Shown here one piece after another: positions 16,123-59,959 of a DNA stretch of 64,000 nt; positions within the stretch are counted from its first letter, which is position 1; each line of letters starts with the position of its first letter. The notes beneath the pieces were generated by a model, which searched no databases, had not been told where the DNA came from, and saw only the letters and a list, made by a program, of their open reading frames with translations. The DNA comes from Artocarpus heterophyllus. Its lineage: Eukaryota > Streptophyta > Magnoliopsida > Rosales > Moraceae. Made by a program: the position numbers and the translations under genes. The stretch covers positions 22,673,652 to 22,737,651 of the forward strand of contig CM046344.1 of NCBI GenBank assembly GCA_025403435.1, given 5' to 3'.

Positions 16123-16124
16123 TG

Positions 16125-16136
16125 CAAGTGGGAGAT
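16125..16136 (+). other. Copia-1 polypurine tract
   Basis: CAAGTGGGAGAT immediately before the 3' LTR, as expected for plus-strand DNA priming. Confidence 0.85.
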
Positions 16137-18150: not shown

Positions 18151-18459
18151 GAACAGTTTTATGAAAAGGTTTAATAATGAATGTTTATGCTGTAACACCC
18201 GTCTATTTTATGTAACGGACCACATTAAGTTAGTAACGTTATTAAGGAATGTTATTAATAAATCATGTTATATGATATGATATGTGATGTGCGTGTTACT
18301 AACTTTTTATGTCAAGTTTTGTGACATGCGACGACCGCATGGGATCGTTGTGCTCTTGTGTTCATGTGAAATTCTAAGTATATGTTTATTTATGATGCAA
18401 TATATGATTATTTATGATGCAATGATGTATGAATGTTTTATGTTATGGCATTGAATGAC

Positions 18460-18585
18460 AGACCGACATGCCGAACTTTTAAGATCGACAGGCCGAACTT
18501 CTTGCTCGAAATCGGCAGGCCGAAGAAACCCACCGGCAGGCCGAACTTGCTGGAACCGACAGGCCAAACACGGCTGACAAGCAGT
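18460..18585 (+). repeat. TCGGCAGGCCGA array, left array of Gypsy-2 5' LTR
   Basis: Five units (ACCGACATGCCGAA, ATCGACAGGCCGAA, ATCGGCAGGCCGAA, ACCGGCAGGCCGAA, ACCGACAGGCCAAA) at about 20-30 bp steps. The 3' LTR has six. Confidence 0.85.
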
Positions 18586-20589: not shown

Positions 20590-20790
20590 CTCAGACGGCC
20601 TGCTGAACTCTGTGGCCGGCCTGCCGAAGACCAGAAGTTCGGCCTGCCGATTAATTTTTCCGGTCTGCCGAACATGGAGGAATTTTCAATCTGTATTGCA
20701 AAGCCTCTGCCAGCCTACCGGTAGAGGAAACACCGGCCTGTCGAAGATGATCGGACTGCCGAAGTCCCAAGTTTGGCCTGTCGAATTGTG
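20590..20790 (+). repeat. TCGGCCTGCCGA array, right array of Gypsy-2 5' LTR
   Basis: About eight units in the CCT orientation (GACGGCCTGCTGAA, GCCGGCCTGCCGAA, TTCGGCCTGCCGAT, CCGGTCTGCCGAA, CCGGCCTGTCGAA, TCGGACTGCCGAA, TTGGCCTGTCGAA), inverted relative to the left array. Confidence 0.85.
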
Positions 20791-21147
20791 GGAATAAATG
20801 GATTTCAAATGATGTATTGATCTAAGAGAATTAATGTGTTATTTTTATAAGTCCTGATTTTTACAATTTGATAAACCTATATATATATTAATGAATAAGT
20901 TCATGATTGATCTAAGTATAATTGAATAAATTATTATATGGAATAAGTTAAACATTGATATTCTAAACAATGATAAGTTTAAAAAAAAAAAAAACGTATG
21001 AATGGATTCTGGTAATGTAAGTTTAAATACTTTTAAAATCAATAGTAACGATTAAGTTTGTTATTATTTATATAAATGTTTATGCATGTACGAATGTAAG
21101 TATGTAACGATATCTGTGACGTCCGATTTAAGGGGCGTTACAGGCTT

Positions 21148-21375: not shown

Positions 21376-22560
21376 ATGCAGACCCGCACCCAGACCAACG
21401 AGAGACTTATGACGATGATCGCCGAACTACAAAGGCAGTTGGAAGATCAATGAAGGGAAATAGCTGCATTAAGGGCCAACGGCCAGAATGGTGAACAACG
21501 AGGCAATGATGTGACTCCTTCTCCTCCGCAGCCACAAGTACAAGTAGATGAAGTCCCAGCTCTTGTTGCTGAACCAAGAGCAGCCTATTAGGAACCTCTT
21601 CTGGTCAAATGGAAGAGAGTCAAGCCAGCTGACTTTGAGGGTTCAAAGGACCCATTAGTCGCTCAGGGATGGTTAAAGACGATCGAAGCCACTCTGAGAC
21701 TCATGGATTGCACGGACAACGAAAAGGTCCTCTGTGCCTCATACTGCCTTACCATGGAGGCCAGGATATGGTGGGACGGCATCGAACAAAGCAGAAATGT
21801 TGAAGAGATGTCATGGGCGGACTTTGTTCACGAGTTCAACATGAAGTTCTTCCACATGAATGTTACGAGGAAGCATTATGAGGAGTTTGAAAGCCTACGC
21901 CAGGGGGATATGACAGTCACTGATGTGGTGACAAAGTTTGACTAGCTAGCTCGCCTATGCCCAGGGATGGTTCTAAACGAAGGTGAAAGGGTCAGAAGGT
22001 TGATCAGGGCCCTTAGACCAGACATTACTGCAATTGTTGATGGGGCTAGTCCACCAAGGACCCAAGAACAGGTTGTTATGAGGGCCCAGCGTGTTGAGTT
22101 TCACTTGTCAAAGTTAAGAAGGAATCAGCCTCAGCCCAACCAGCAGGCCAACAATGCCAACAACCAGAACCGCCCTCCCCACAGGAACAACAACAACAAC
22201 AATAGCAGCAGCAACAACAACAGTCAAAACTGGAGAAACAATAAGAGGAAAGGTAATCCTCAACAACAGCAGGGCCAAGACAACAAAAGGCACAATGATG
22301 GTCAGCGCAACAATAATGACATGCGATTCCAACCATGTGCTAAATGCGAAAAGAAACATCCAGGGGAATGCCGATTGGGGACCAACCAATGTTTCATATG
22401 TGGGCGTGAAGACCATTTCGTAAAGAACTGCCCTAAACTGATGAATGCTAATGCCCCGCAGAGACCTCCTCCTCAAGCCTAGCTGCATCAGATGCAAGCC
22501 TCCCTTGAAGGGCCACTAATTAGTCAAGGGAGACTTGAAGCCCCACCGACAAATGCCTGA
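21376..22560 (+). pseudogene. Gypsy-2 gag (five in-frame stops)
   Basis: Single frame from the ATG at 21376. N-terminal coiled-coil-like segment, retrotransposon gag domain (VKPADFEGSKDPLVAQGWL to LRQGDMTVTDVVTKFD), a second half with EGERVRRLIRALRPDI, an Asn/Gln-rich linker of CAA/AAC runs (22130-22330) and a CCHC knuckle (CFICGREDHFVKNC, about 22390-22431). Stops: TGA 21451, TAG 21589, TAG 21943, TAG 22480, TGA 22558. All fit CAG to TAG or CGA to TGA changes. No frameshift is needed. Confidence 0.92.
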
Positions 22561-25500
22561 ATCTACGCCATGACAAAAGAACAAGTGGCTGCTGAAGCCT
22601 CCAATGTGGTCACAGGTCAGATAACAAGCTTATGTAATGATGTTTATGTTCTTTTTGATACGGGTGCCATGCATTCTTTGTATCTATGTCACATGCTAAG
22701 AAGTTAGGGGTTCGTTTAGAGCCTATAAGACAGGGATTTACTACGACACTACCCTCCGGGGAAGTGATATTATCCACGCATTGTTTGCGTAAAGTACCCC
22801 TATGGATTTCTGATAGGGAACTTTTCATCGACCTCATTGTGATCGACATGCATGACTATGACATGATCCTTGGGATTGATTTCCTAAGTAAGTATAATGC
22901 CGCAATCGAATGCCGAAAACGAAATGTGATCTTCCATCCTGAAGGTGATCAGAAATTTGTTTATGTTGGCGAGACCAGGAAGAAACCTCATATGTTTCTA
23001 TCGGCAATGAAAGCAAGGAAGCTTTTGGCAAGTGGCTGCATGGGCTATCTGGCAAACGTTGTAGACAAAAGCCAAGAAGGAAAGACAAGAATGGAAGATG
23101 TACATGTTGTTCATGAATATGAAGATGTGTTTCCTGATGATCTAACGAGTCTACCGCTAGAAAGAGAAGTTGAATTCGAGATTGAGCTCGCTCCAGGCAC
23201 CGAACCAATCTTTAAAGTGCCTTACAGAATGGCCCCGATAGAATTAAAAGAGCTTCACACACAATTAAAGGAGCTACTGGACAAGGGATTTATCAGGCCA
23301 AGTCACTCACCTTGGGGTGCTCCAGTTTTATTTGTGAAAAAGAAGGATGGCACTATGAGACTCTGCATTGACTACAGAGAACTGAATAAGGTGACGATTA
23401 AGAACAAGTATCCATTGCCTCGAATTGATGATTTGTTTAATCAGCTCAAGGGTGCATCAGTGTTCTCAAAGATTGATCTACGATCAGGATATCACTAGTT
23501 GAAGATCAAAGAAGGAGATATCCCCAAGACTGCTTTCAGGTCGAGGTATGGTCACCATGAATTTGTGGTTATGCCTTTCGGTCTGACAAATGCACCTGCT
23601 GCCTTTATGGATTTGATGAACAGGGTATTCAAGGATTTCCTCGATAAATTTGTTGTTGTATTTATCGATGATATTCTTGTCTACTCGAAGAATCAGGAAG
23701 AGCATGAGGAGCATTTAAGGATTGTGCTGGAGACTTTGAGAAGACACCAGCTATATGCTAAGTTCTCTAAATGCGAGTTTTGGCTTGATAAAATGTCATT
23801 CTTGGGGCATGTTATTTCGAAGGATGGGATTATGGTGGACCCGGCCAAAGTAGAAGCCGTACTCAATTGGAAGCAATCGATGAATGCAAGTGAAATAAGA
23901 AGCTTCTTGGGTCTAGCAGGTTACTATCAGAGATTTGTAGAAGATTTCTCCAAGATAGCAGCTCCACTCACAAACTTGACTCGCAAAGGAAAGAAGTATG
24001 AATGGACGGATGCATGTGAAAAGAGTTTTCAAGAACTGAAGAAAAGATTAATGACGGCTCCAGTGTTGGCAATTCCTGAGGGAAATGATGGGTTCGTAAT
24101 CTACAGTGATGCATCCAAGATGGGCCTAGGAGCTGTATTGATGTAGAATGAAAAGGTGATTGCTTATGCTTCAAGACAACTGAAAGACTACGAAAAGAAC
24201 TATCCTACTCACGATCTCGAGTTAGCAGCAGTTGTTTTTGCGTTGAAGATATGGAGACACTATTTATATGGGGTCCAATGCAAGATCTTCACTGATCATC
24301 AAAGTCTGAAGTACTTCTTCATGCAAAGAGACCTGAACATGAGACAACGAATATGGCTAGAGTTGGTGAAGGATTATGATTGTGAAATCCTATATCATCT
24401 TGGCAAAGCTAACCGAGTGGCTGATGCTTTAAGTAGGAATTCAGTTGCCACGTTGATGTCTATGCAAGCAATGTCTCCACCTCTAAGGAAGAAAATTCTA
24501 GACTTCGGTTTAGAACTTATAGCAGGTCAGCTATCAGCACTCTCTCTTGCTCCGACGATGTATGATGAAATTTAGAGTAAGCAAGATGACGACGTAAGCC
24601 TTGTAAGAATCAAGCAAGAAATGAAAGAAGAAAAATGTCAAGAGTTTCGTATTGCGGATGACGAAACTCTGTACCTTAAGGACCGTTTATGTGTTCCCAA
24701 TGTTGATGATTTAAGGGAAAGGATCTTGGCAGAAATTCATGACACTCCTTACTCTATTCATCTAGGTGCAACAAAGATGTATAATGATCTAAAGGGTAAC
24801 TTCTGGTGGTTTGGAATGAAACGTGATGTTGCAAAGTATGTGAAGAAATGTATGACATGTCAACAAGTAAAGGCTGAACACTAGAAACCTGGTGGTGAAC
24901 TACAGTCTATCCAAATACCGGAATGGAAATGGGAAGAAATAGCTATGGACTTCATTACTGGCTTACCCAGAACTACAAACGGTTATGACGTAATCTGGGT
25001 AGTTGTGGATCGACTGACGAAGACGGCGCATTTCATTCCTATCAAGATCACTTACTCTATGGAACGGTTAACAGAGCTTTATGTTAAGGAGATTGTACGA
25101 CTTCATGGGATTCCCAAGTTGATTATCTTAGATCGTGATGGCAGGTTCACATCTAAGTTTTGGAAGAGTGTCCAGACTGCAATGGGAACCAGGCTTCATT
25201 TCAGCACGACTTTTCATCCTCAGACTGACGGCCAAACAAAGAGGACGAATTTGATTCTAGAAGATATGCTGCGTGCGTGTTCTCTCGATTTTAAGACCAG
25301 CTGGTGTAAAATGTTGCCGTTAGCAGAGTTTGCTTACAACAACAGCTTTCAGGCGACCATTGGAATGGCACCATATGAAGCACTGTACGGACGAAAATGC
25401 AGGTCACCCATTTGTTGGCACGAAGCTGGTGAAAGGAAGTTGATGAAAAGTGTTGATACTGAAAGAACCGATTTTGTGAATGAAACGTCGGAGATGATAA

Positions 25501-26000
25501 AGTTGATAAGAAGAAGAATAGAGACCGCTCAAAGCCGTCAAAAGAGTTATGCTGACAAAAGAAGAAGACCTTTAGAGTTCGCTGTAGGCGAATATGTATT
25601 CTTGAAAGTTGCACCAATGAAAGGAGTTATGAGGTTTGGGAAGAAAAGCAAGTTAAGCACAAGATTCATCGGTCCTTATGAAGTTGTTAAACGAATAGGC
25701 AAAGTAGCTTACCAGCTAAAGTTGCCTTCTGAAATGTCCGTAATGCACGATGTATTTCATGTCTCCATGCTCAAGAAGTATGTTCTGGACCCTACGCATG
25801 TGATTGAGCCACAAGTGATCGAGATACGAGAAGATTTAAGTTATGAAGAAAAGCCAACGAAGATACTCGATTGGAAAACCAAGACCTTGAGGAATAAAGA
25901 AATCGCATTGGTCAAGGTATTATGGCGAAATCAGCAAGTTGAAGAAGTTACATGGGAACGTGAAGATGACATGAAAGCTATGTATCCGCATTTGTTCTAA
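22561..26000 (+). pseudogene. Gypsy-2 pol: protease, RT, RNase H, integrase, chromodomain-like tail
   Basis: Protease active site FDTGA at 22654-22668, then a one-base deletion near 22679. From 22686 one frame runs to 26000: RT with FIDDILVYS near 23660, RNase H ([14 protein letters not shown], about 24103), integrase zinc finger (H...H then CMTCQQ, about 24740-24870) and catalytic core (DFITGLP; LDRDGRFTSKFW; HPQTDGQTKRTN), then a C-terminal VTWEREDDMKAMYPHLF tail of chromodomain type. Four in-frame TAGs (23496, 24144, 24573, 24882) each replace a glutamine codon expected from the family. The third DDE acid is lysine (QTKRTN instead of QTERTN), so the integrase would be inactive even without stops. 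Confidence 0.93.
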
Positions 26001-26036: not shown

Positions 26037-27905
26037 TGTAACACCTGTCTATTTTATGTAACGGACCACATTAAGTTAGTAACGTTATTAAGGAATGTTA
26101 TTAATAAATCATGTTATATGATATGATATGTAATGTGCGTGTTACTAACTTTTTATGTCAAGTTTTGTGATAGGTGACGACCGCATGGGATCGTTGTGCT
26201 CTTGTGTTCATGTGAGATTCTAAGTATATGTTTATTTTTGATGCAATATATGATTATTTATGATGCAATGATGTATGAATGTTTTATGTTATGGCATTGA
26301 ATGACAGATCGGCAGGCCAAAATTTTAAGATTGACAGGTCGAACTTCTTGCTCGAAATCGGCAGGCCGAAGAAACCCACCGGCAGGCCGAACTTGCTGGA
26401 ATCGGCAGGCCGAAGGGGAAAAATCGACAGGCCGAACACGGCTGACAAGCAGTCAGCAGAAATTCTCCAAAATTATGGCTGAGTTAATTACATTAATTAG
26501 GTGAATTAATGTGATTAATTGGCATAATAATGGAATGTTTTTATCAGTTAAGAAAATTAAAGGATTTGATTTGTATTATTTTAAGAGGTTTCCTATTTTT
26601 AGGAGGTAAGATTGATGATGTTTGACCTTCCTTTTCTTTCTCTTCCTTTTCCCACGCCAATCACCCTCTTAACAGTAAGAAATTTCTGACTTAATGAAGA
26701 GTAATGACTCTTCATTATACACATTATGTTAGAAAAAAAAAAAATTTTAACGCTCCTTCCTCAGATATTCACCCCTCTCTCTCATTCATTTTTGAGACAT
26801 CCTTTCATTCTCTTTTCTTCTCTTCTTCTCCACGAGTTCTCTCTCTCTCTCACGAAAATTCTCTGCATATATTGAAGGAAAAGTCTTATTTTGTTGATTG
26901 AAATCAAGGGGTTTTGAGAAGAAAGTCTTCTAAGGTAAGGACTCATGTATTTGTAAATCTAAAAAGATATTCTCCCCTCAAATTCATCTACAATATCCTC
27001 TCTAGGTATTGTATTTTATTTTGTGTTTTTATTATGATTCTCATGAATGTTATGTGTGATGTTTCTTCACGATTCACGTCTTTTTGGTAGTTTTATGAAA
27101 AATGAATACTTCTGTCTTCTACCCTTCACAGTAATGTTACTGTTTAATTTTGATGTATAAAAAAAAATGTAATGTTCATTCAAGGGGTAAAAATGATGTT
27201 TTCTTGATAATGTTTTTTTTTTTTGGGATTTTTGTTTTATTAAACGTTTTATGTATTTACATGATTTTGTGATAATAAAATGATTTTATGCATATTAAAA
27301 TGTATGGTTTGTTTTTATATGCTTAAGGTAATTTTTATAATTAAAGAAAAATCATAATAACATGTTTATGTGATGACAATGTTTATGGTTATGAATTATT
27401 GATTATAATGGATGAAATGAAAAAATATATATGTGATAATAATTTCATGTTTTACGATGATGGTTATGAATTATGAGATGAATGTATTTGAGAAATGTTA
27501 TATGCATGGATGTTTTATGATACATATTAATGTATTGCATCTTTAAAAGGGAAAATGGCATGAACACTTAAGGAACGAGCACTACGAGACCGCGGTGTCG
27601 TCACCGGGTCACGTTAAGGTTAAGTAAGCTAACGATAAGGTAAGTACATTCTCACCTACAACATGACACATGTTTTTACAAGGTTTAATGATATGTTTAC
27701 AAGGATATTCATGATGATTTTATGATGATTTTTTTTTCCTTAAAGGATTTCTTATGAAAGATTTTCATGATTTTAAAGATATGCATGTATGATGATGACA
27801 TGTTTCAAAGTATGAAAAGTATGTATATATGTATCACCTAATAAGTGTTACACACCCAATGTTATGAAATGTTATGTTATGATGTCATGTTTGGTTTGGG
27901 ATTAG
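26037..27905 (+). repeat. Gypsy-2 3' LTR, left part
   Basis: TGTAACACCTGTC... up to GGGATTAG, matching 18191-20047 of the 5' LTR. The last five bases, ATTAG, are the target duplicated by the level-4 insertion. Its array (26305-26445) has six TCGGCAGGCCGA units, one more than the 5' LTR. Confidence 0.93.
26305..26445 (+). repeat. TCGGCAGGCCGA array, left array of Gypsy-2 3' LTR
   Basis: Six units. The extra one (ATCGGCAGGCCGAAGGGGAA) lies where the 5' LTR passes straight from the fourth to the last unit. Confidence 0.85.
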
Positions 27906-28490
27906 TGATGAGACTATAAAAGTGTACATTTTCTAAGGCTTAAATCATTTGTTTACGCTTTTATTTCTCATTAAATCCTCTAATTATTAGCAGTTTGTGT
28001 TAATAAGCATTTTTGTGTCTTGGTGTGAAAATATGATTAAAAATGCATTTTTAGTGTGTTTTTATGTTTTTGGTAATTATTAGAGTCATTTTGGTGTGTT
28101 AAATAAGTGTCTAGTCTGTAAATAGTCAAAACCGTAAAAGTAATGCGGTTATTTTATTTTGAGTGTTAGTGTGTTTGGTAGTGTGTTTTAAGTTTATAAA
28201 TATGTCTTATTATATTTTTAGTTATTTTTAAAAATATTTTCAAGTCATAAAAATTATATCTGTGCTCAACCGTAAGAGACTGGAAATTTTAAGAGTTTTT
28301 ATCTATTTTTGTGTGTTTTATTGTAAAATAAATATTTTTTACATTTGTAAAATAATTAATATTAGTATGTTTGTGATTTTAGATTTGAAATCTGGAGGAA
28401 AAATGGAGCAAAACGACACAAAAACGGATAAAATCGAACATCAAATGCATCAAAAATCTTTGAAAAATTCAAAATTCAAAATGTAGAGGA

Positions 28491-28610
28491 CACGTGGCAT
28501 CATGGGAGCCGTCAGATTCACTGCCAAATCAATCTCAGCCGTCCGAGGAAGAGACGCGTGTCGACGCGTCATTCGGTGCGTCAGTAGAATCTCAAAGTGC
28601 GGTCCACGTG
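28491..28610 (+). promoter_or_regulatory. Pair of inverted ABRE/G-boxes in level-4 5' LTR
   Basis: GACACGTGGC (CACGTG at 28491-28496) and CCACGTGTC (CACGTG at 28605-28610) face each other 114 bp apart, upstream of the TATA box. CACGTG with these flanks is the core recognised by plant bZIP factors of the ABRE/G-box class. Both are kept in the 3' LTR. Confidence 0.6.
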
Positions 28611-29018
28611 TCGAGATATTATTGGCGCGTGCGAAACATGCGCCGACAAGCTGCAGCGTGTCAGTGGAGTTCTTAGACCGTCTTGGATCGCGTGCGGTCA
28701 TGACCACATGCAGCCTCTCTCTTAGCCATTCGATGCGAATACGGAGACTGATCTAACGGTCCTAAAAGCTCGATCCCACTGGTCCAACCTGGGCCCATCT
28801 TGCCCGCATCTGACAGCAGTTGGATCTCGTTTTGAACAGTTCAGATCGTGCCTATTCCGTGCTGATCTAGTCTGCGTCACACTGGATTACAAACTCAAAT
28901 TCGCATACTCACGAACGCGGATCAGCGAGAAGAAGAGAACAAGCAAATAATTAAAAATCGTCAACTTTCAACGGTAAAGATCATTAATTATCAATGGACG
29001 TTTGCAACCTCGAATCGC

Positions 29019-29026
29019 TATAAATA
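29019..29026 (+). promoter_or_regulatory. Level-4 LTR TATA box
   Basis: TATAAATA in CGCTATAAATACCGAGG; same in the 3' LTR at 38782. Transcription probably starts about 30 bases downstream, near the CAGTTGGGG sequence. Confidence 0.7.
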
Positions 29027-30035
29027 CCGAGGCTTTTGCCTCAGTTGGGGAGCCATCCGCAACATAATAATGCTGTTGTAGTAATTATAGTCTAGTTTTT
29101 ATTCCAGTTTTTAATCTAGTTTCTTGTAAAATATTTCCTAGTTTGTGTTGTAAAAATTATGCTCAATAATATAAGTAGTATTTTATTAATTATGTCTTTT
29201 TAAATTTCTTTTTAGCTGAGGGGAGAGGGGGAAATTCTGGCAAAATTATCTTAAATATTTTTGGTTTTTCTTAGTTTTTCTAAGCTGTTGTAATGCCAAA
29301 ATATTCTCTTAGAAAACCTAGAAGTTCAATATTTTCTTAGCTAGAACTCTGCCAAAATTACGGTTTTGATTTATCGACGACATAGACTGGCACGGATAAT
29401 GCTTGGGAGGACCTTGATTACTCGTAGACAGAGAATGACTCGGTAAACGCTTAACTCACTATCTTGGTTGTTATTTTAGTTAAGTTATGTTGAAATGCTG
29501 CTTATTTATTAAGTTGTGTTTTTGCTGCATTATAGACATGAAATGGCACAATAAATGCTTGGTAATTCTTTATTTATTGTCGACATAGGATGGCATAGTG
29601 CATACTTAAACTAACTAATAAATAAAAAGAGAAACTAAAATATATTAAAGATAATCGTCAGAACGGAACCTTTGAACCTCAGCCCTGTTATTATTACTGT
29701 TTCACTTCTTTTAATTGTCGTTATTATTGTTGTTACTCTGCTTAAGTTATTAATTGTATTTCTTGTTATTTAAGTTCCATATCATCAAAATCTAAAAATG
29801 AAAAATGTTGTAAAAAAATGTGTAAATATTGTAAATACATTCTGTGAATAATTAATATTAATCCTCAAATTTTTTAGTTTAAATAAAAAGAAAAAGTTAA
29901 TATAATACATGTACTGGAACTAAATAAATCCTTCCTTGTGGGTTCGACCTCGGATTCACCGAGAAAATATTACTTGAGACAACCTTATACTTGAGGTTAG
30001 TTTAAAATGCGTAAATAGACGCGAGACCAAGTTTT

Positions 30036-30053
30036 TGGCGCCGTTGCCGGGGA
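30036..30053 (+). other. Level-4 primer-binding site
   Basis: TGGCGCCGTTGCCGGGGA shortly after the 5' LTR, the conserved primer-site sequence of Tat/Athila-group Gypsy elements. Confidence 0.85.
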
Positions 30054-30787
30054 AGGTATTGTTTTTAGTGCAGTATAATATTGTGTAATATATTTTCTTT
30101 TTTTTTATTTTTCTTTTATATATTACTAACTTTTCTTTTCTTTTGTTTTATTTCTTTTCTTTTGTTAATATCTTCTGTTTTGCAAGTATTAAGTACTGTT
30201 CATGTAGAAATCTGCATGCATTTTCGGTAAGTTACTATTTGTAGTAGTTACTATTCACGTCACTTTTTTTTTAAAAAAAATTAAAAAATATATATATATA
30301 TATAAAAAATCAAAAAAATAAAAAAAAAAAAAAATAAATAAATCATAAAAATTTTATTTTCTCTCATTTCTTCTGTAAAATATTTCTTTTGCTAGTTTTA
30401 GGTTTTTGCATTAGAAATAAAACTTTATAACATTTTAGATTAGGTTTTCCATAATACTTAATAAACAAATTGTGTTTTTGTGAAAAGTATTTTTTGAGAA
30501 AGTTTTGTTTGGGGACTGGTACTGGTTTGGAATTCTTTCCCATAACCAGTTCACTTTTGGAGATTCTCCCAACACCAGTCATTCCTGAAACGTTGTTCTG
30601 TCAAGGAGATTGGTTCTTAAGGAGCCTTAGCACCACCAATTTTTCCTGGGGGCATTCTTGAAAAATATAATTCGCAACTTCACAAAATCAATAAGGCAGA
30701 TACTTTTCATTCACTACTCTACTCTCCCTGAGTGGAGAAAAGCTTAGTATTTGTCTATAAAATTTTGTAAATATTTAAATAATTTGC
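30054..30787 (+). other. Level-4 5' leader
   Basis: Non-coding, very T/A-rich to 30360 with a (TA)n stretch near 30290. No ORF of note. Confidence 0.7.
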
Positions 30788-33529
30788 ATGCCAGTTTGGT
30801 TTCATGAGTTTAATAGTCGTAGGTTAGTTAGGAAAAGTTTAGAATCACATTTCGTCTCTGTTGTGTCTTCAAATTCACCAAAAATGGCTGATGATGAAAG
30901 TGTTCATAATGAAGATATTGTTAATCAACAAATCATCAATCCTGTTGTTCGCTCAATGAGAGATTATTTGCAACCACCCCGTGAATCCACTCCATCATGT
31001 TTGGTTTTTCCTCTCAATGCTCATCACTTTAGGTTTAAACCTGGAATGATCAACTTGCTTCCCAATTTTCATGGCTTAGAATATGAAAATCCATATCTGC
31101 ACCTTAGAGAGTTTGAAGATATTTGTGCTACCTTCATTGACCAGGAAGTTTCAAATGAAATTGTTAAGCTTAAGTTTTTCCCTTTTTCTTTAAAAGACAA
31201 AGCTAAAACTTGGCTTACTTCTTTAAAACCTAGGTCAATAGGTACATGGCAAGAAATGCAAACTGAGTTTCTGAAAAAATTCTTTCCAACACATAAGACC
31301 AATGCTTTGAAAAAACAAATTCAAAATTTTTCCCAAAATGCAAAAGAAGTTTATTTCCAAAGCTGGGAACGATTTAAAGATTTGTTGAATTCTTGCCCAC
31401 ATCATGGTTTTGAAAAATGGCGTTACATTAGTTTTTTTTATGAAGGCTTAACTCCTGAAACCCATCAATTTGTTGAAACAATGTATAATGGAGAATTCCT
31501 TGATAAAGAACCTGATGAAGCGTTAGATTTCCTTGATAATTTGGCTGATAACTCTCAATACTGGCAACATAGTAATTCTGAAGGCTCAATTAGATCTAAT
31601 CTTGCTAATGCTCAAAGAGGTGTCCATCAACTTAGTCATGAAAATGATCTAAGTGTTAGAATTGCATGTTTGACTAAAAAGATTGAAGCCATGGAACGAA
31701 GGAATGTCCAAGAACCCAAAATTGAAATTTTGTGTAGTGTTTGCCAAACTCTAGGACACTCAACTTACGAATGCCCAATTTTTAAGGAAGAGTCCCATGA
31801 ACAGGTAAATTACACAAATCAATTAGACCCACCTAGAAAGCCATTTCCATCCCCACACTCTGACACATACAATTCACAATGGAAAAATCATCCCAATTTC
31901 AGTTGGAGAAATGATCAACCACAACAGCAATATCAACCACCACCACCATTTCCACCACAAAACTCTCAAGGCCGACCACCATTTCTATCAAATTCTCAAA
32001 ATTTTCAAAGACTTCCACAAAATTTTTCTAAAAATCTCCATTCTCGAGTCAAAACTCTTGAATGCACTTTGCAAACTTTCATTCAAGCTCAAAAATCATT
32101 CATTCAAAAACAAGAAGTTCACAACACTCGCACTTCTCAAGACATTCATGAAATTAAAGAATCTATTTCTAAACTCACTTCTTCTCTTTGCATTCAAGAA
32201 AAAGGAAAATTTCCTGCTCAACCTATACATTATGCATCTGCAAATGAAATTGCCTCTTCTAGTTCACAGGCACAACAAGAAACTGTTAACTTTGTTACAA
32301 CTCTTCGAAGTGGAAAAACTGTTGATAAAACTAATCTTTTAAAAGATCAGAATGTTAATTCAACTTTGAAAAGTGGTGATAAAATTAATAGTGATGAGGA
32401 GAATTCTGAAAAAGAAAAGAGTGTTTCAAAAGAGAAATTTGTTCCAAAGATTCCATTTCCTCAAGCTTTGCTTTCAAAAGAGAAGTTTGACAAAAATGCT
32501 GAAATTTTTGAACTGTTCAAACAAGTCAAAATTAACATTCCACTTTTAGATGCAATCAAACAAGTCCCATCTTATGCAAAATTTTTGAAAGATTGTTGTA
32601 CAATTAAAAGAAAGCATAATGTGACTAAAACTGCATTTTTAGCTAAGAATGTTAGTTCCATCATTCAACATGATTCATCATTGAAATAAAAAAATCATGG
32701 TTGTCCCACAATTTCTTGCATCATCAGAAATACTTAAATTGAACATGCTTTGTTAGACCTTGGTGCTAGTGTCAACCTCTTGCCTTATTCTGTTTATCAG
32801 CAATTAGGTTTAGGTGAACTAAAGCCAACTTCTGTCACACTTCAACTAGCTGATCGATCTGTAAAAATTCCAAGAGGTGTTGTCAAGGATGTGTTAGTCC
32901 AAATTGATAAATTTTACTACCCAGTGAATTTCATTGTTTTGGATACACAACCTGTCACAAATACAAATGTTTAAATTCCTGTCATTTTGGGTCGTCCATT
33001 TCTTGCAACTTCTAATGCTTGGATTAATTGTAGAAATGGAAAACTAAAATTGTCTTTTGGGAATATGACTTCAGAATTCAATGTTTTTAACATGGCACAA
33101 TCACCCTCTGGAAAGTGTGAAGTGAATTTTGTTGAGAGCAATACTTCAGGAACGTTTGTTGATCCCTTGGCTGATTTGGCTAATTCTTTTGATTCGAATG
33201 TTCCACCCAAGGTTGACAACCATCCTGTGAATGTTTCTGACCAATCCCTTGAAGCAAACATTTCAAATTTTGAGGCTGAATGTGAAAATGAAGTTTTTGA
33301 AGAACCTGAAGATGTGGTGATGGGTGACACTGTGGGTGACACTATAGATGACCTCATGTATGATCTCATGGATGAAGAAGAATTTCAGCAAAGATTCTTT
33401 GCAGCTGCTGGCAACTTAACTTTTTGGGAGTGCTATCTTTTGGGAAGGTTTCGAGCATCTCTTCCAACAGTCATCCACATTGACGATTCTGACTCCGAAC
33501 CAGAAACTAAAATCATAGTTATAGATTAA
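30788..33529 (+). pseudogene. gag-protease of level-4 element, three in-frame stops
   Basis: One frame, 914 codons, broken only by TAA at 32687, TAA at 32735 and TAA at 32972. ATG 30788 opens the frame; the in-frame ATG at 30884 (MADDESVHNED) looks the likelier start. The gag domain covers about residues 75-235 (NFHGLEYENPYLHLREFEDI; FFPFSLKDKAKTWL; WERFKDLLNSCPHHGFEKW). A CCHC knuckle CSVCQTLGHSTYEC lies near residue 316, then a Pro/Gln-rich linker. The protease has DLGASVNLLP (about 32757) and ILGRPFLAT (about 32981). After it comes an acidic tail (DDLMYDLMDEEEF; HIDDSDSEPETK) and the frame ends where RT would normally begin. Confidence 0.92.
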
Positions 33530-33619
33530 TGTTTGTATTGTCTTTATTTTTTTTTTGTGTTTGTCGTATCTTTATTTTCTTTGTTTTTCCTAAAAATCAG
33601 AAAAATAATTTCAAAAATT

Positions 33620-33707
33620 CATTAAAATGGTAGAAATTATGGAGGTTATAATCAGCACGATTAGTTGGTATTTTTGTATCAACGGCCTCTAGAAACGCAT
33701 TTTAATG
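33620..33707 (+). other. Hairpin HP1 after gag-PR
   Basis: Perfect 10-bp arms CATTAAAATG (33620-33629) and CATTTTAATG (33698-33707). GAAACG sits directly 5' of the right arm, as in HP2, HP4 and HP5. The 68-base loop is longer than in the others, lacks CTGAG, and can form smaller stems (GAGG/CCTC; TTGGTA/TATCAA). Confidence 0.6.
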
Positions 33708-33895
33708 AAATAATTTTCAATGAATTTTTTTGAATTTTAGATCTCTAAAAAAAAAAAAAAACTAAAAAATACAAAAATATTTTCTTGTCTAAGTAATCTG
33801 TTAGGTTACTTTTCTTTGGCCCATTTTAGTTCAGCCCATTACTCTTACGTGCGTCTGAGTAAGCTTCCCCGTGTCTGAACAGAAGTGCACCCCTT

Positions 33896-33907
33896 GTCTA
33901 TAAAATC
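33896..33907 (+). promoter_or_regulatory. TATA-type box upstream of ORF2
   Basis: GTCTATAAAATC, 250 bases before the ORF2 ATG, followed by a pyrimidine-rich leader with TCTCTCTC runs (33945-34130). The identical 12-mer precedes the LOG-like ORF. Confidence 0.55.
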
Positions 33908-34156
33908 TGTTACTGTGCATGCAAGCTCAGAAATCTTTGTTCTTTCTCTCTCTAAATTTCTTGTTCTCTCTCTCAAATTTTCTCTGTCTTCTCGCTAAAA
34001 TTCCAAGAAATTCTTCAAAACTCTTTCAAAATTCTTCAATCTTTCAAACACTTTTCAATCTTCTTTTCTTCTGCTTCCACAAAAATCTTTGCAATTCTCT
34101 CTCGAACTCTCTCTTAAAGCTTTCAATTCACTCTCAAGAATCTCAATTTCTCAATC

Positions 34157-34711
34157 ATGGATCCAAAATATGAGCACTTAAAGAAATATTTCCCTTCACT
34201 TTCTCAAAGAGAGATTAGAAAGAAGTATAAAACTAGAGTCACTCGTCTTTGGGTACTTTCGCGTTTTAAGTTTCCTACTGATATCAAGATGTACATAGAA
34301 GGTCTTGCTCGTTCAAATGATGTAAATAATGTAGGTTTGCCTGGTATGGGTACAAGACTGTGTGCTAGAAAAAGAAGAGCTCGTCGTATGGAGTCAAAAT
34401 GTCATAAATGTTCTCGTCAAACTTGTTCTGGAAAATGTCCCTCACCTGGTTTCATATCTAGAAATAGGGAAGATAAAATTAAGTTCTGTAAAAATGGTCT
34501 TAGGAATGAAAACTTAGAAGATCTTTGAGTTTCTCTTGAGTCCCATCCAAGTGGATACGTCTGGGGGGCTATGAAACAACTCTGGCCTCAATTTCATGAA
34601 GAAAAAGAACGTCTTGGGAATCTGACGCTAAAAGACCCAACTGTTCAGTTTGCGAGAATGTTAGATGGAAAATAGACTCATGATCCTTCCACTTCAGAAC
34701 AAGGTCTGTAA
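34157..34711 (+). pseudogene. ORF2: basic cysteine-rich protein, carlavirus NABP-like
   Basis: Opens at ATG 34157; TGA at 34526 ends a 123-residue product, and the frame continues past TAG 34673 to TAA 34709 (184 sense and stop positions). Around residues 70-94 there is a very basic run (ARKRRARR) directly followed by Cys82-x2-Cys85-x4-Cys90-x3-Cys94, then P-G-x-I-S-x-N and, about ten residues on, an N-G. This order (glycine-rich turn, ARKRRA-like run, zinc-binding cysteines, PG-IS-N, hydrophobics, G) is the layout of the small nucleic-acid-binding, cysteine-rich proteins of carlaviruses and allexiviruses, known as RNA-silencing suppressors. It is not a retroelement domain I know. The part after the first stop (YVWGAMKQLWPQFHEEKERL) is unrecognised. 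The match is judged by eye and spacing between cysteines is shorter than I would expect. Alternative: an unrelated basic zinc-binding protein. Confidence 0.55.
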
Positions 34712-34765
34712 GGTATTTTCTTTGTTTCTCTGTGTGTTTGTCCAAAAAAAAAAAATGATTGAAAA

Positions 34766-34883
34766 TTTATTCGAGGTATGATCATGGTTTTAATGAAAAA
34801 CATCATCAAAACGGCTGAGTAACGGAATTTCTGGAAACGCGTTTTGATGAACAAAAGTTTTCTTCAACTCATTCTCGAATAAA
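34766..34883 (+). other. Hairpin HP2 after ORF2
   Basis: Inner arms CATCAAAACG (34804-34813) and CGTTTTGATG (34840-34849), a perfect 10 bp. A further outer stem TTTATTCGAG (34766-34775) pairs with CTCGAATAAA (34874-34883). The inner loop has GCTGAGTAA, a small CGGA-ATT-TCTG stem, then GAAACG. Confidence 0.7.
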
Positions 34884-35225
34884 ATCTCATCAACAAAAAG
34901 ATTTTTATTTTTGTGTGATTTGTACAGTTGTTGTTTAATAATTGTGATTATACCATTTATCTTATAATAATGATATCTTGACTTTTCTTCTTTTGTCAGA
35001 TGCATAATTATATTCGGTAGGTGTCTTGTGTGTCGTGTAAGATAAGCTTTGCTTTGAATTTTAATATTTAGTCCCATTTGTCAAAAGTTGTACAGTAAAG
35101 TCCAGTTTGTCAAAAGGTAAATAGTGTTGTCAGGAACACGTTATCTGCAGGGGTGTCATATTTATCTGTCCTTGTCTGTCATCACAGCTATCTTTATCTA
35201 ATTTTACCCAACCTTCTCTTTAGGT

Positions 35226-35237
35226 GTCTATAAAATC
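35226..35237 (+). promoter_or_regulatory. TATA-type box upstream of LOG-like ORF
   Basis: GTCTATAAAATC, 102 bases before the ATG at 35339; identical to the box at 33896. Confidence 0.6.
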
Positions 35238-35338
35238 CTTTCAGTTCTTAAGTTTTTCTCAGAGCGAATTTGTAAGATAGAGTCATTCAAAAAAAAAAAA
35301 AAGAAGGAAAAAAAAGAGTCTTAGTCTTAGTAACTATC

Positions 35339-35977
35339 ATGGATTCCTCATCCCAGTCATCTTTAAAGTTCAGCAATATCTGTGTGTTTTGTGGTTCTAA
35401 ATCAGAAAGAGGCATTGAGTACATAGAAAATGCATTTCATTTAGGCTATGTCTTGGCTAAGAAAAAGATAAATCTTGTCTATGGAGGAGGTAGTCTAGGT
35501 TTAATGGGTACTGTCTCTGCTGGATGACGTTCTATAGGTACTGGAGCTCTAGGTATTATTCCAGGTGTCCTTGCTCAAAGTCGTTTATGTGGTCTTACCA
35601 TTGGTGTTGAAAAAATAGTTGTAGGTATGCCTGAGTGAATAAGAGACATGGAGTTTGCTTCTGATGCTTTCATTGCCTTACCTGGAGGTTTAGGAACTCT
35701 AGAGGAACTTTTTGCCGTTGCTAGTTGGAAATTGTTAGGACTACACTCTAAACCTGTTGGTTTGTTAAATATAAATGGTTACTTTGACAGTTTGCTTAGT
35801 TTTTTAGATCATGCTGTGGAACAAAAGTTTCTTGATGAGTCAGGAAGAAAGATTTTCATCTCTGCCACTACTGTAGAGGAATGGCTCGAAAAAATGCACG
35901 TCATTGATCCTGAAACGGACACTGCAACATCAAAGTTCTGCGGAAAACGCAAACGAGATTGGGATCTTTCTCTCTAA
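35339..35977 (+). pseudogene. LOG-like cytokinin riboside 5'-monophosphate phosphoribohydrolase, two stops
   Basis: 212-residue frame close to the usual LOG length (about 210-220). LOG enzymes release active cytokinin bases from nucleotide precursors in the cytosol. Seen: FCGSKSERGIEYIENAF (substrate loop), VYGGGSLGLMG, and the family signature PGGLGTLEE followed by KPVGLLNINGYFDSLLSFLD. Two in-frame TGAs (35525 and 35636), no frameshift. The second falls at the arginine of the MHxRK motif (CGA to TGA fits), and the GGR glycine-arginine before the IIP strand has become GT. There are no introns, whereas plant LOG genes have several, so it derives from an mRNA. The C-terminus adds a basic KFCGKRKRDWDLSL tail. 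Dead as it stands. Confidence 0.88.
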
Positions 35978-36118
35978 ACTCTACCTCTTTTAGTTTTACT
36001 TACAGCATTGTTGTTTTGTCTTTGTTTATGTGTTTGTCTTTGAATAACCGCTCTGGTAAGTATATGTTGTTACTCTTCTTATTTAATCTTGTTAAACTTT
36101 GGAACAGTGTTCAATCTA

Positions 36119-36134
36119 GGTTGGGGGGAGAAGG
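36119..36134 (+). other. Internal polypurine-like tract
   Basis: GGTTGGGGGGAGAAGG, 140 bases after the LOG stop. Resembles the tract that precedes the 3' LTR (GGTTGGGGGG at 37656), so it could be a second plus-strand priming site or an old element end. Confidence 0.45.
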
Positions 36135-36246
36135 TTGTGTCAATTTTTTTCTTTTGTGATTGAATCTGGGACTAGTTTTAAAAAAAACCAAGCGAAAAAA
36201 AAAGAGTGTGCTGTTTGTAAGACTTTAAGATTCATGTGTTCATAGG

Positions 36247-36289
36247 TCGAGATGGCTGAGTGAAGGTTTTGACCTGAAACACGTCTCGA
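36247..36289 (+). other. Hairpin HP3
   Basis: Arms TCGAGATG (36247-36254) and CGTCTCGA (36282-36289), 8 bp with one G-U in RNA. Inside: GCTGAGTGA, stem AGGT-TTTG-ACCT, then GAAACA. Confidence 0.7.
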
Positions 36290-36364
36290 TAATGGTCCGA
36301 AAATGAAGTTCTTTGTGTTTGTAAAATTCTCATCTCTGCATTTTTCTTTTGTAGAATAAAAGTT

Positions 36365-36414
36365 TGAAGATGGCTGAGGTAAGGAGTGTTTATTATTCTT
36401 GAAACGCATCTTCA
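36365..36414 (+). other. Hairpin HP4
   Basis: Arms TGAAGATG (36365-36372) and CATCTTCA (36407-36414), 8 bp perfect. Inside: GCTGAGGT, stem AAGGA/TTCTT, then GAAACG. Confidence 0.7.
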
Positions 36415-36419
36415 CCTTG

Positions 36420-36471
36420 GTAGAAATAGCTGAGTAATGGAGTGACTAGCATTCTTGAAACGTGTTTCTAC
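36420..36471 (+). other. Hairpin HP5
   Basis: Arms GTAGAAATA (36420-36428) and TGTTTCTAC (36463-36471), 9 bp with one G-U. Inside: GCTGAGT, stem AATG/CATT, then TTGAAACG. Only five bases after HP4, and the loops of HP4 and HP5 align over GGAGTG...ATTCTTGAAACG. Confidence 0.7.
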
Positions 36472-36475
36472 ATGA

Positions 36476-37652
36476 TTGTAAAAACTGTGTTTGCATTGCA
36501 TTTATTAAAAAAAAAAAATCTAAAAATATTTTGGTGATTTGCCTCCTGTCCAATGACGATATCAAGATTATATCATTTCCATGACTTAAGGTAAAGTTTA
36601 AATATTATTTAAGTTTATGTTAGTTTCTTTAGTTTGCCATATGTTTAGGGTGAAATTTTTCCAAAATTTGAACACTTAATCTTGCACTATAATTTGTTAT
36701 ATTAATTTAGAGACTTTTTATGTTAGTATAATTTGGTTTATTTTTATAAAATCTTATAACTTGTTTAAATCCCTCTTGAGACGAAATCCTAGATAACACT
36801 AAGTTATAGATATAATTTAGGCCATCTTTGGATCGTTTGAGCCTTTGAAGCTAACCTGTTTACATTTTATATCCCTAGTCACCTCGTTGTGCTTAATGTT
36901 CTATTTTCTTTGTTACCCATATATTTAGCCTAGCCTTTTTAATTCATAATCCTTTTCTTGTACCTTTCACTCATAAGACATCTGTTCTTTCAAGTGAATT
37001 CAGGTTTATGAGGTTAGGATGAGTTAGGAATATCTGCTACCTCTGTAAAATATGTACGTAACTCTTCAGTTATTATAAAAAAAAAACAAAAACAAAAAGA
37101 TCAAAAAAAAAAAAGAAGAAAGTTTAATAAAAAGTGGTTGACAAAGGAAATTTCATTTCGAGTTTGGGATTGTAAACTTTGGGAATTGGATTGTACATTT
37201 TAAAGGTTCAGGATTTTTGTAAGTGTCTTATGGGTGAACTGAGCCTCAAATATATCTTCCATCGTACCTTTAACCCAAGCCTTAGATTACAAGCCGAATA
37301 AAGTCCTAAAAGTCTTTAACAAGGTGTTATTCTACATGAGTGGAAAGAGGGATGAAAAACAAATTTATAAGAATTTATTTAAATGAATTAAGATATATTA
37401 ATATAAATTTATCTAGTTAATATGCATTGATTAGTAATAGAAATTCACACACACAGGGAAAAATTCATCTTAAACAATTGACAAACTCTAGAAATGAATC
37501 ATAACTTAATTAGTGTTTGCATCTTTACTTTGGGGCATGAATATGAGATAAATCCTGAGGAAAATCAGTGAGGAATCGCAAGTTTCAAAAAAAAAAAAAA
37601 TCTTTTGACTATTTTAAGTTTTATCGCTTTAGTTGCTAGAGACTAGCAATAA
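36476..37652 (+). other. Level-4 3' non-coding region
   Basis: 1.2 kb with no ORF of note and several A-rich runs (36506, 37076-37120, 37586). Similar long non-coding 3' regions are usual in Tat/Athila elements. Confidence 0.7.
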
Positions 37653-37667
37653 GCTGGTTGGGGGGTG
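37653..37667 (+). other. Level-4 polypurine tract
   Basis: GCTGGTTGGGGGGTG directly before the 3' LTR. Confidence 0.8.
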
Positions 37668-39791
37668 TGATGAGACTGTAAAAGTGTACATTTTCTAAGG
37701 CTTAAATCATTTGTTTACGCTTTTATTTCTCATTAAATCCTCTAATTATTAGCATTTTGTGTTAATAAGCATTTTGGTGTCTTGGTGTGAAAATATGACT
37801 AAAAATGCATTTTTAGTGTGTTTTTATATTTTTGGTAATTATTAGAGTCATTTTAGTGTGTTAAATAAGTGTCTAGTCTGTAAATAGTCAAAACCGTAAA
37901 AGAAATGCGGTTATTTTATTTTGAGTGTTAGTGTGTTTGGTAGTGTGTTTTAAGTTTATAAATATGTCTTATTATATTTTTAGTAATTTTTAAAAATATT
38001 TCCAAGTCATAAAAATTATATCTGTGCTCAACCGCAAGAGACTGGAAATTTTAAGAGTTTTTATCTATTTTTGTGTGTTTTATTGTAAAAGAAATATTTT
38101 TTACATTTGTAAAATAATTAATATTAGTATGTTTGTGATTTTAGATTTGAAATCTGGAGGAAAAATGGAGCAAAACGACAGCAAAACGGATAAAATCGGA
38201 CATCAAATGCATCAAAAATCTTTGAAAAATTCAAAATTCAAAATGTAGAGGACACGTGGCGTCATGGGAGCCGTCGGATTCACTGCCAAATCAATCTTAG
38301 CCATCTGAGGAAGAGACGCGTGTCAACGCGTCATTCGATGCATCAGCGGAATCTCAAAGTGCGGTCCACGTGTTGAGATATGATGGGCGCGTGCGTTACA
38401 CGCGCCGACAAGCTGCAGCGTGTTAGTGGAGTTCTTAGACCGTCTTGGATCGCGTGCGGTCATGAACCACATGCAGCCTCTCTCTCAGCCATTCGATGCG
38501 AATACCGAGACTGATGTAACGGTCCTAAAAACTCGGTCCCACTGGTCCAACCTGGGCCCATCTTGCCCGCGTCTGACAGCTGTTGGATCTCGTTTTGAAC
38601 GGTTCAGATCGTGCCTGTTCCGAGTTGATCTGGTCTGCGTCACACTGGATTACAAACTCAAATTCTCATACTCACGAACGCGGATCAGCGAGAAGAAGAG
38701 AAGAAGCAAATAATTAAAAATCGTCAACTTTCAACAGTAAAGATCATTAATTACCAATGGACGTTTGCAACCTCGAATCGCTATAAATACCGAGGCTTTT
38801 GCCTCAGTTGGGGAGCCTTCCGTAGCATAATAATGCTGTTGTAGTAATTATAGTCTAGTTTTTATTCCAGTTTTTAATCTAGTTTCTTGTAAAATATTTC
38901 CTAGTTTGTGTTGTAAAAATTATGCTCAATAATATAAGTAGTATTTTATTAATTATGTCTTTTTAAATTTCTTTTTAGCTGAGGGGAGAGGGGGAAATTC
39001 TGGCAAAATTATCTTAAATATTTTTGGTTTTTCTTAGTTTTCTAAGCTGTTGTAATGCCAAAATATTCTCTTAGAAAACCTAGAAGTTCAATATTTTCTT
39101 AGCTAGAACTCTGCCAAAATTACGGTTTTGATTTATCGACGACATAGACTGGCACGGATAATGCTTCGGAGGACCTTGATTACTCGTAGACAGAGAATGA
39201 CTCGGTAAATGCTTAACTCACTATCTTGGTTGTTATTTTAGTTAAGTCATGTTGAAATGCTGCTTATTTATTAAGTTATGTTTTTGCTGCATTATAGACA
39301 TGGAATGGCACAATAAATGCTTGGTAATTCTTGATTTATTGTCGACATAGGATGGCATAGTACATACTTAAACTAACTAATAAATAAAAAGAGAAACTAA
39401 AATATATTAAAGATAATCGTCAGAACGGAACCTTTGAACCCCAGCCCTGTTATTATTGCTGTTTCACTTCTTTTAATTGTCATTATTATTGTTGTTACTC
39501 TGCTTAAGTTATTAATTGCATTTCTTGTTATTTAAGTTCCATATCATCAAAATCTAAAAATGAAAAATGTTGTAAAAAAATGTGTAAATATTGTAAATAC
39601 ATTCTGTGAATAATTAATATTAATCCTCAAATTTTTTAGTTTAAATAAAAAGAAAAAGTTAATATAATACATGTACTGGAACTAAATAAATCCTTCCTTG
39701 TAGGTTCGACCTCAGACTCACCAAGAAAATATTACTTGAGACAACCTTATACTTGAGGTTAGTTTAAAATGCGTAAATAGACGTGAGACCA
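37668..39791 (+). repeat. Level-4 element 3' LTR
   Basis: 2,124 bp, the same length as the 5' LTR, with scattered single-base differences. CACGTG boxes at 38253-38258 and 38367-38372; TATAAATA at 38782-38789. Confidence 0.95.
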
Positions 39792-39796
39792 ATTAG

Positions 39797-40877
39797 CTAC
39801 CCTTCTCCTCTCATGATGACGCGCGCCTATGATGATGATTATGGTGCAACACTTGGGCCCTTAAGATAAAATAGATTAAGTTTTAAAATGGTTAACGTTA
39901 CGAAAAATATGTTCTATAAAATTGTGCTTAAGGCACTTTTATGATACGATGATAATGATGATGATGATGATAATGTTTATGAAATGTTTTAAAAATTGTG
40001 AGAATTATATGTACTTACTAAGCGTTAGCTTAATCATGTTTTGTATGTCATGTTGCAGATAAGGGTAAGAGAGTCATGGAATAGGAGGAGGACGTGGGAA
40101 GGCGTGTGAGCAACATGAACGATGAATTGTAACCGGAAGCACGCCAAGAAAAAAAATTGATTTTATGATTTAATCAAGTTTTATATTTTGAACATATATT
40201 TTTTTATGTGAAGTTTTAAGAATACTTACATTATGGTTTAATAAGGTATTTTATCATTTTTAATGAATTATGAACTTCCGCTATATTTTACGTAAAGTTG
40301 GTGTGTTTTAAGTTAAGTTTTCCAAAGGAATTTGGTCTCGGACGTTCTGCCGAACTCTATGGCAGGCCTGCCAAAGACCAGAAGTTTGACCTGCCGATTA
40401 ATTTTTCCGGTCTGCCGATCATGGAGGAATTTTCAATCTGTGTTGCAAAGCCTTTGCCGGCCTACCGGTAGAGGAAACACCGGCCTGCCGAAGTCCCAAG
40501 TTCGGCCTGCCGAATTGTGGGAATAAATGGATTTCAAATGATGTATTGATCTAAGAGAATTAATATGTTATTTTTATAAGTCCTGATTTTTACAATTTGA
40601 TAAACCTATATATATATTAATGAATAAGTTCATGATTGATCTAAGTATAATTGAATAAATTATTATATGGAATAAGTTAAACATTGATATTCTAAACAAT
40701 GATAAGTTTAAAAAAAAAAATAATAACGTATGAATGGATCCTGGTAATGTAAGTTTAAATACTTTTAAAATCAATAGTAATGGTTAAGTTTGTTATTATT
40801 TATATGTCTAATGTTTATCCATGTACGAATGTAAGTATGTAACGATATCTGTGACATCCGATTTAAGGGGCGTTACA
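39797..40877 (+). repeat. Gypsy-2 3' LTR, right part
   Basis: Resumes at CTACCCTTCTCC exactly where the left part stopped and ends GGGGCGTTACA. Its array (about 40345-40520) lacks one unit present at 20745-20765 of the 5' LTR. Confidence 0.93.
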
Positions 40878-54273: not shown

Positions 54274-54275
54274 AT

Positions 54276-54288
54276 TGGTGTCAGAGCC
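54276..54288 (+). other. Copia-2 primer-binding site
   Basis: TGGTGTCAGAGCC, one transition from TGGTATCAGAGCC. Confidence 0.8.
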
Positions 54289-59947: not shown

Positions 59948-59959
59948 ATCTCCCACTTG
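59948..59959 (-). other. Copia-3 polypurine tract
   Basis: Complement of CAAGTGGGAGAT next to the LTR. Confidence 0.8.

Follow-up and report, generated by a model that had tools for sequence, protein, structure and literature searches.

A decayed, pol-less LTR retrotransposon of Artocarpus heterophyllus with NABP-like and LOG-like frames, a probable derivative of an Athila-like Ty3/Gypsy lineage

The Gypsy retrotransposons of plants often carry extra open reading frames (ORFs) without known relatives, and the function of these ORFs is an old question. Steinbauerova et al. 2011 reportedly described two Athila-like elements with similarity to LOGL4. The element studied here lies at positions 27906-39791 of the window, which is the whole 64,000-nucleotide stretch of Artocarpus heterophyllus DNA that was analyzed (GenBank assembly GCA_025403435.1, contig CM046344.1, positions 22,673,652 to 22,737,651, forward strand). 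Between its long terminal repeats (LTRs) it carries gag-protease (gag-PR), a frame resembling the NABP of carlaviruses and allexiviruses, and a LOG-like frame. It is probably a decayed, non-autonomous, pol-deleted derivative of a putative Athila-like Ty3/Gypsy lineage, mobilized in trans and equipped with accessory proteins.

Several described systems resemble parts of this element. TR-GAG is the name of a class of gag-bearing elements without pol (PMC6022998): the likeness lies in the LTRs, in the presence of gag or gag plus protease only, and in the lack of reverse transcriptase (RT), RNase H, and integrase, whereas the element in the window adds two accessory frames with recognizable relatives. 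Gypsy consensus sequences with a LOG (YgdH) domain are on record for two species of Citrus and, when one filter is switched off, for Populus trichocarpa (PMC9289625, which cites Steinbauerova et al. 2011). The shared feature is a LOG-family extra domain in a plant Ty3/Gypsy element; however, the relevant passage of that paper mentions no NABP-like partner, and its elements were collected by the RT domain, which is absent here. The same source describes Gypsy elements of orchids that encode an AlkB m6A demethylase. There, too, a Gypsy lineage has a gene for an accessory enzyme as a fixed part, but the enzyme is another one, its activity was measured, and the RT domain served to find the elements. 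In viral NABP (PF01623, PF05515) a four-Cys motif comes after a basic stretch, as it does in the retrotransposon versions; these differ in their shorter Cys spacing, in an extra C-terminus of about 60 residues common to the full-length versions, and in belonging to a DNA element, not an RNA virus. Finally, the plant LOG, a type I phosphoribohydrolase of cytokinin riboside monophosphates (AtLOG3, 2a33), shares with the clade described below the fold, the PGGxGTxxE motif and, in most rows, the catalytic Arg and Glu.

The insertion and its gag-protease region

The element is a complete LTR insertion of 11,886 bp, nested in an LTR of another Gypsy element, and is known here from this one copy, within the 64-kb window. 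Self-alignment delimits a 5' LTR (27906-30029, + strand) and a 3' LTR (37668-39791, +) of 2124 bp each. They are identical at 2057 of 2123 aligned positions (96.9%), with 46 transitions, 20 transversions, and 2 gap columns. The Kimura two-parameter (K2P) divergence is 0.032, which would correspond to an insertion age of ~1.2-2.5 million years at substitution rates of 1.3e-8 and 6.5e-9. The primer-binding site TGGCGCCGTTGCCGGGGA (30036-30053, +) is presumably complementary to the 3' end of tRNA-Asp, the primer that would mark Athila; a tRNA gene was sought in the window and none was found. The polypurine tract GGTTGGGGGGTG (37656-37667, +) is located 5' of the 3' LTR. The target-site duplication ATTAG is present on the left (27901-27905) and on the right (39792-39796). 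The sister copy of the interrupted host LTR (18191-21142) aligns to 26037-27905 and 39792-40877, on either side of the insertion, and contains one uninterrupted ATTAG (20044-20048) with the same flanking bases as at the insertion. Since this LTR reads through a single ATTAG with matching flanks, an empty site is preserved in the same window. The structural part of the preliminary description of this locus, namely the duplication, the 2124-bp LTRs, the primer site, and the polypurine tract, is therefore confirmed.

The Gag ORF (30788-32689, +) encodes 633 aa, with a further ATG at 30884, and matches PF03732 at E 3.3e-22. The same frame continues into a protease region and then an acidic tail (32690-33529, +). 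Homology to the protein P0123 extends over 30788-33169, the protease homology reaching ~33169, and in-frame stops are found at 32687, 32735, and 32972. A comparison of the acidic tail (33170-33529) with 242 fetched proteins gave no convincing relative (E 0.003 at best by blastp; none by phmmer). Of 3652 candidates in the gag search, 395 were homologues at E ≤ 1e-5, and the best 120 of these were taken as the gag relatives to be examined. It should be mentioned that one plant gag-like protein (P0132) is named Pseudomonas protegens in the public protein set; this is probably contamination.

RT, RNase H, and integrase were searched for with five pol probes: two pieces of the contig L001 described below and one each of P0201 (Fagus), P0228 (Vitis), and P0151. 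Nothing in the element was better than E 0.019, a match inside the LTR. The same five probes recovered the pol of the host Gypsy element, whose internal pol ORFs lie within 21946-26000, at E 7e-10 to 1e-42. The element is thus non-autonomous, as had been proposed, and agrees with the definition of TR-GAG in PMC6022998: an LTR pair whose only domains are GAG, with or without AP. In the gag-PR proteins P0131 and P0134 of the same lineage, inspection by eye suggested that the protease region runs into an integrase C-terminus; therefore, deletion of pol seems to recur.

All three coding regions are broken in the window copy: there are three stops in gag-PR, one early stop in the NABP-like frame, and two in the LOG frame. 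This copy is dead, and a full-length product is possible from none of the three frames.

The NABP-like gene and its position 3' of integrase

The NABP-like frame of the window (34157-34528, +) has 123 aa and matches PF05515 at E 0.0068, below the cut-off. Its stop is at 34526 and the homology runs on to ~34693; the frame ends before the C-terminal ~60 residues found in P0002. A homology search with this frame gave two proteins at E ≤ 0.01, P0001 (93% identity) and P0002 (184 aa; 81%). The gag search, which is blind to the NABP-like frame, adds two more among its best 120 matches: P0141 from Citrus sinensis, and P0147 from Pterospermum, which stands for a cluster of 66 sequences. In the precomputed Pfam annotation of these two, gag stands together with PF01623 in one annotated protein. 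P0141 is 44% identical to the window frame over 34217-34687 (E 7e-33), and P0147 is 41% identical over 34118-34693 (E 2e-32). In addition, when genome contigs were scanned with the NABP alignment, one locus, L001 (3330 bp), came out of 29 pattern matches. Full-length versions of the gene are found in P0002, L001, and P0147.

L001 (1-3330) is a plant-retrotransposon-like contig filed in a Candidatus Nomurabacteria metagenome-assembled genome (MAG), where it is probably contamination; it is regarded as plant sequence because it matches plant retroelement proteins. It contains, in order, the end of RNase H, an integrase ORF (194-1594), and an intact NABP-like ORF (1799-2347). The integrase ORF has only PF00665 (60.4 bits) and PF17921 (48.2 bits). 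An additional RNase H, which marks Tat according to PMC6317226 and would be lacking in Athila, is possible upstream, since the contig begins inside RNase H. The NABP-like gene of L001 thus follows integrase immediately, at the place taken in other elements by env-like extra ORFs. This arrangement suggests that pol was most likely lost from an ancestor already carrying the gene, and was not exchanged for it; the statement that the element had "swapped pol for" its cargo is not upheld.

The 3' non-coding region of the element (36071-37114, +) contains two stretches colinear with the post-NABP region of L001. With lenient scoring, L001 2549-2614 aligns to 36071-36135 (E 6e-5) and L001 3026-3322 to 36819-37114 (E 6e-8, 58% identity); with stricter scoring, L001 3026-3069 aligns to 36819-36862 (80%, E 3e-4). 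The LOG-like gene is placed within the interval absent from L001. These data are best explained by an ancestral order of gag-PR, pol, NABP-like gene, and 3' region. The window element is best read as having lost pol, its line having gained LOG or that of L001 having lost it.

The aligned sequences share a core composed of a basic stretch, CHKC-R-C, and NREDKI. The five relatives each match one or both of the viral families PF01623 and PF05515 at E ≤ 0.001. With PF05515 (cut-off 23), the window frame (16.8) and P0001 (20.2) are below the cut-off, and P0147 (28.5) and L001 (34.2) are above it. With PF01623 (cut-off 20.9), P0001 (20.0), P0141 (20.4), and L001 (19.8) are below, and P0002 (22.6) and P0147 (28.3) are above. 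A curated cut-off is therefore passed by three of the five relatives (P0002, P0147, and L001), while the window frame, P0001, and P0141 pass neither. The Cys spacing is CX2CX4CX3C in the five aligned sequences, except for CX2CX4CX4C in P0141, and L001 also has CX2CX4CX3C. According to two papers, the zinc-finger spacing is CX2CX12CX4C in one carlavirus (PMC10141686) and CX2CX9CX4C in another (PMC3689765); the NABP-like sequences do not have the CX2CX9-12CX4C spacing of these two viruses, and this counts against close kinship.

The likeness might be convergence, in which a short arginine-rich stretch came to stand beside a CCCC zinc motif without common descent with the viral proteins. The subthreshold scores and the shorter spacing would fit such an origin, and the AlphaFold model of P0002, at a mean pLDDT of 43, is unusable for the comparison. 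However, the matches of all five relatives to the viral families, three of them above the curated cut-off, and the PF05515 match of L001, which covers 88 residues and extends past the zinc motif, make convergence unlikely. Scans of viral contigs with P0002, the NABP alignment, P0123, and P0018 gave no relative.

The functional guess for this protein comes from p12 of the carlavirus chrysanthemum virus B, which is described as activating transcription in the nucleus and suppressing silencing in the cytoplasm (PMC7588395); carlavirus p12 is also described as a cause of hyperplasia (PMC12172455). Between the window and L001 genes, pN is 0.40 and pS is 0.71 over 122 codons; this is a single pairwise estimate and weak evidence, because dS (2.3) is near saturation.

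Literature searches, mostly outside subscription journals, found no report of an NABP-like or carlavirus-type gene in a retrotransposon, and the portions seen of PMC7264820, PMC11963269, PMC11728184, PMC6317226, and PMC8234997 describe neither cargo. LOG in Gypsy elements, on the other hand, is already in print, as noted above, PMC9289625 being the one paper in which the searches for LOG in retrotransposons found it. The NABP-like 3' gene is apparently a component shared within the putative Athila-like lineage and has not, it seems, been described before.

The LOG-like frame and its clade

The LOG-like frame (35339-35977, +) was delimited by its PF03641 match (E 6.6e-26), translation, and trees. 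It is intronless, as had been stated, and has 212 codons; the uninterrupted ORF at 35648-35977, to which the preliminary description presumably refers, is only its second half. Stops are located at 35525 and 35636, the latter in the column of the catalytic Arg. The features by which LOG proteins are recognized, namely the Lysine_decarbox domain, the PGGxGTxxE motif, and the fold, are found, the fold in the model of a clade member described below.

In the LOG search 8000 candidates were scored and 7876 passed; the relatives considered here are the best 120 of these. P0003, P0004, and P0007, which have tandem or fused LOG, were left out of the tree, the residue counts, and the counts of row sources. 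In the resulting tree of 118 rows, 81 database rows and the window lie on one side of a branch with an SH-aLRT support of 99%, and 26 ordinary plant LOG rows are set off from them by a branch of 0.70. A second tree of 41 rows (40 hand-chosen of the 117 database rows, and the window) was built with position 125, the motif block, and the C-terminal tails masked; in it, the clade including the window had a support of 99/98 and appeared in 100% of 200 bootstrap trees. The LOG-like frame is thus in a well-supported clade apart from ordinary plant LOGs; its place inside the clade is unsure because of its long end branch (1.21).

The active site of this clade can be compared with that of CgLOG. In PMC4979012, Arg99 and Glu122 are proposed as catalytic residues; Met96, His97, Lys100, Glu125, and Trp129 seem to form the site of the prenyl group and are identical in AtLOG3, OsLOG, and CpLOG. 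Among the 81 clade rows, Arg99 is kept in 74 and Glu122 in 78. The pocket is conserved unevenly: Met96 is kept in 72 rows, His97 in 24, Lys100 in 2, Glu125 in 1, and Trp129 in 80. The Lys100 column has I, L, or M in 78 rows, K in 2, and H in 1. In contrast, every catalytic and pocket residue is kept in all 26 ordinary plant LOGs; the same is true of all 10 rows of the group of Xanthoceras and P0044. The window frame has M, P, I, A, and W in the pocket columns and a stop in the Arg column. Furthermore, a DLxLxL-type ending of the tail is found in 73 of the 81 clade rows and in none of the 26 ordinary LOGs. The model of a clade member, the Populus row P0014 (pLDDT 87), has AtLOG3 (2a33) as its best structural match, with TM scores of 0.97 and 0.77 when normalized by target and query length, respectively, and a sequence identity of 53%.

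A clade that mostly keeps the catalytic Arg and Glu and is without the cytokinin-pocket Lys100 (79/81) and Glu125 (80/81) is new. A changed substrate would be the simplest inference from these sequences. The label "cytokinin-activating" given to the frame earlier is therefore unsafe. This bears on the idea that a cytokinin activator and a silencing suppressor took the place of pol, so that the element gained from blunted silencing and from division of the cells that feed the germ line. The activities of carlavirus p12 and the confirmed LOG fold of the clade member speak for it. However, L001 has the NABP-like gene alongside integrase, the clade has lost the two pocket residues in nearly all rows, and all frames of the window copy are broken; this idea appears highly improbable.

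The named members of the clade are from Populus, Parasponia, Diplodiscus, Reevesia, and Paulownia. Rows from unnamed sources make up 63 of the 81 and only 2 of the 26 ordinary LOGs; taken to be unspliced ORF calls, they fit intronless genes. The LOG clusters have up to 81 members. P0003 (Xanthoceras) has a gag piece between two LOG domains, which matches 92 of the 120 gag proteins, and it is the only one of the best 120 LOG matches with a gag piece inside. The clade might be composed of ordinary host gene duplicates (retrogenes), one of which was captured recently and independently by the window element. This is suggested by the annotation of the named Populus rows as plain LOG genes and by P0003 being the sole match with gag sequence. 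On the other side, the window frame lies within the clade yet is distant from, and close to none of, the listed genes; rows from unnamed sources are far more frequent in the clade than among the ordinary LOGs, and the clusters are large; and LOG-bearing Gypsy consensus sequences are published for Citrus and Populus (PMC9289625). Capture of a host retrogene is considered distinctly unlikely.

Origin of the element and its possible meaning

Both sense-strand frames noticed in the preliminary description are present and have relatives beyond this copy. Since relatives of both occur elsewhere, the element is not the result of a one-off swap. Both frames might still be passengers: transduced sequences that do nothing for the element and, like most captured genes, persist for some time while they decay. 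The broken state of all three coding regions is in agreement with this, as is the finding, in PMC9289625, of a LOG domain in the Gypsy consensus sets of only three species when 121 angiosperm genomes were screened. But the 81-row clade, with several named genera, keeps the catalytic Arg in 74 rows and the Glu in 78, and the NABP-like gene is full-length in three relatives with pN below pS, the latter being weak evidence for the reason given above. The passenger explanation is therefore regarded as rather unlikely.

The pol-deleted derivative of an Athila-like lineage, preferred here, would have arisen as follows. An ancestor would have had gag-PR, pol, and the NABP-like 3' gene, and pol would then have been deleted. 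The resulting TR-GAG-like element might be packaged by its own Gag or that of a partner, and RT and integrase supplied in trans would copy it. By analogy with p12 of chrysanthemum virus B, the NABP-like protein would be a nucleic-acid binder, with a possible role in the nucleus or in countering silencing. As the catalytic Arg and Glu are mostly kept and the cytokinin pocket is rewritten, the LOG-like protein may be an N-ribosyl hydrolase whose substrate is some nucleotide different from the usual prenylated AMP.

Several points weigh against this scheme. L001, filed under a bacterial MAG, is 3.3 kb long and does not extend to gag; one in-frame stop interrupts its RNase H piece, and with PF01623 (19.8 of 20.9) its NABP-like protein misses the second cut-off. 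The weaker matches of the 3' region, at E 0.003 and up, are scattered and not colinear. P0141 and P0147 are gene models, in which predicted splicing may mask the interval between gag and the NABP-like gene. The direct tie of LOG to gag consists of P0003, which is outside the tree of the 81-row clade, and the literature. Among the matches listed, no relative has gag, the NABP-like gene, and LOG together. Moreover, the functions of both accessory proteins are inferred.

TATA-like motifs were found with a scan allowing up to one mismatch: GTCTATAAAATT upstream of gag (30753-30764, +), and GTCTATAAAATC upstream of the NABP-like frame (33896-33907, +) and of LOG (35226-35237, +). On both strands of the 64 kb, GTCTATAAAATC with at most one mismatch has three sites, where 0.72 is expected and 2 of 100 shuffles reach three. 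The three sites of this TATA-like 11-mer each precede one coding region on the same strand. As the motif was chosen after looking, it is only a lead for internal promoters.

Hairpins follow the NABP-like and LOG frames at 34803-34850, 36247-36289, 36366-36413, and 36420-36471; three were found by pattern and that at 36366 by eye. They have a common core (GCTGAG..A.GG ... GAAAC) and differing complementary arms of 6-11 bp, and a looser relative is located after gag-PR (~33630-33705). The chance of a 7-bp arm is 0.014 per site, and one of the three scanned arms has only 6 bp. Rfam gave no match over 33530-37667 at E ≤ 1. The hammerhead ribozyme was considered and dropped: the arms pair together and the core differs. 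Elsewhere in the window, 8467-18148 and 52242-64000 contain several copies of related repeated Copia-type elements (RVT_2, rve, gag_pre-integrs).

A wider scheme can be put forward tentatively, and we regard it as possible rather than likely. A Gypsy lineage would carry a homologue of the nuclear zinc-finger silencing suppressor of carlaviruses at the env position, and a sub-branch would have added a LOG-fold enzyme with a base pocket re-tooled to take another modified nucleotide. This would involve gene exchange between an RNA virus and a retrotransposon, in a direction left open. The pair might be a counter-defence module kept through the loss of pol and expressed from internal TATA-bearing leaders.

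The function of the extra ORFs becomes testable once a retrotransposon 3' gene has recognizable kin in a viral protein that suppresses silencing and acts as a transcription factor. The LOG-like clade, with its catalytic residues mostly kept and its pocket lost, points to unstudied nucleotide chemistry in transposons, which would stand beside the m6A demethylase of orchid Gypsy elements.

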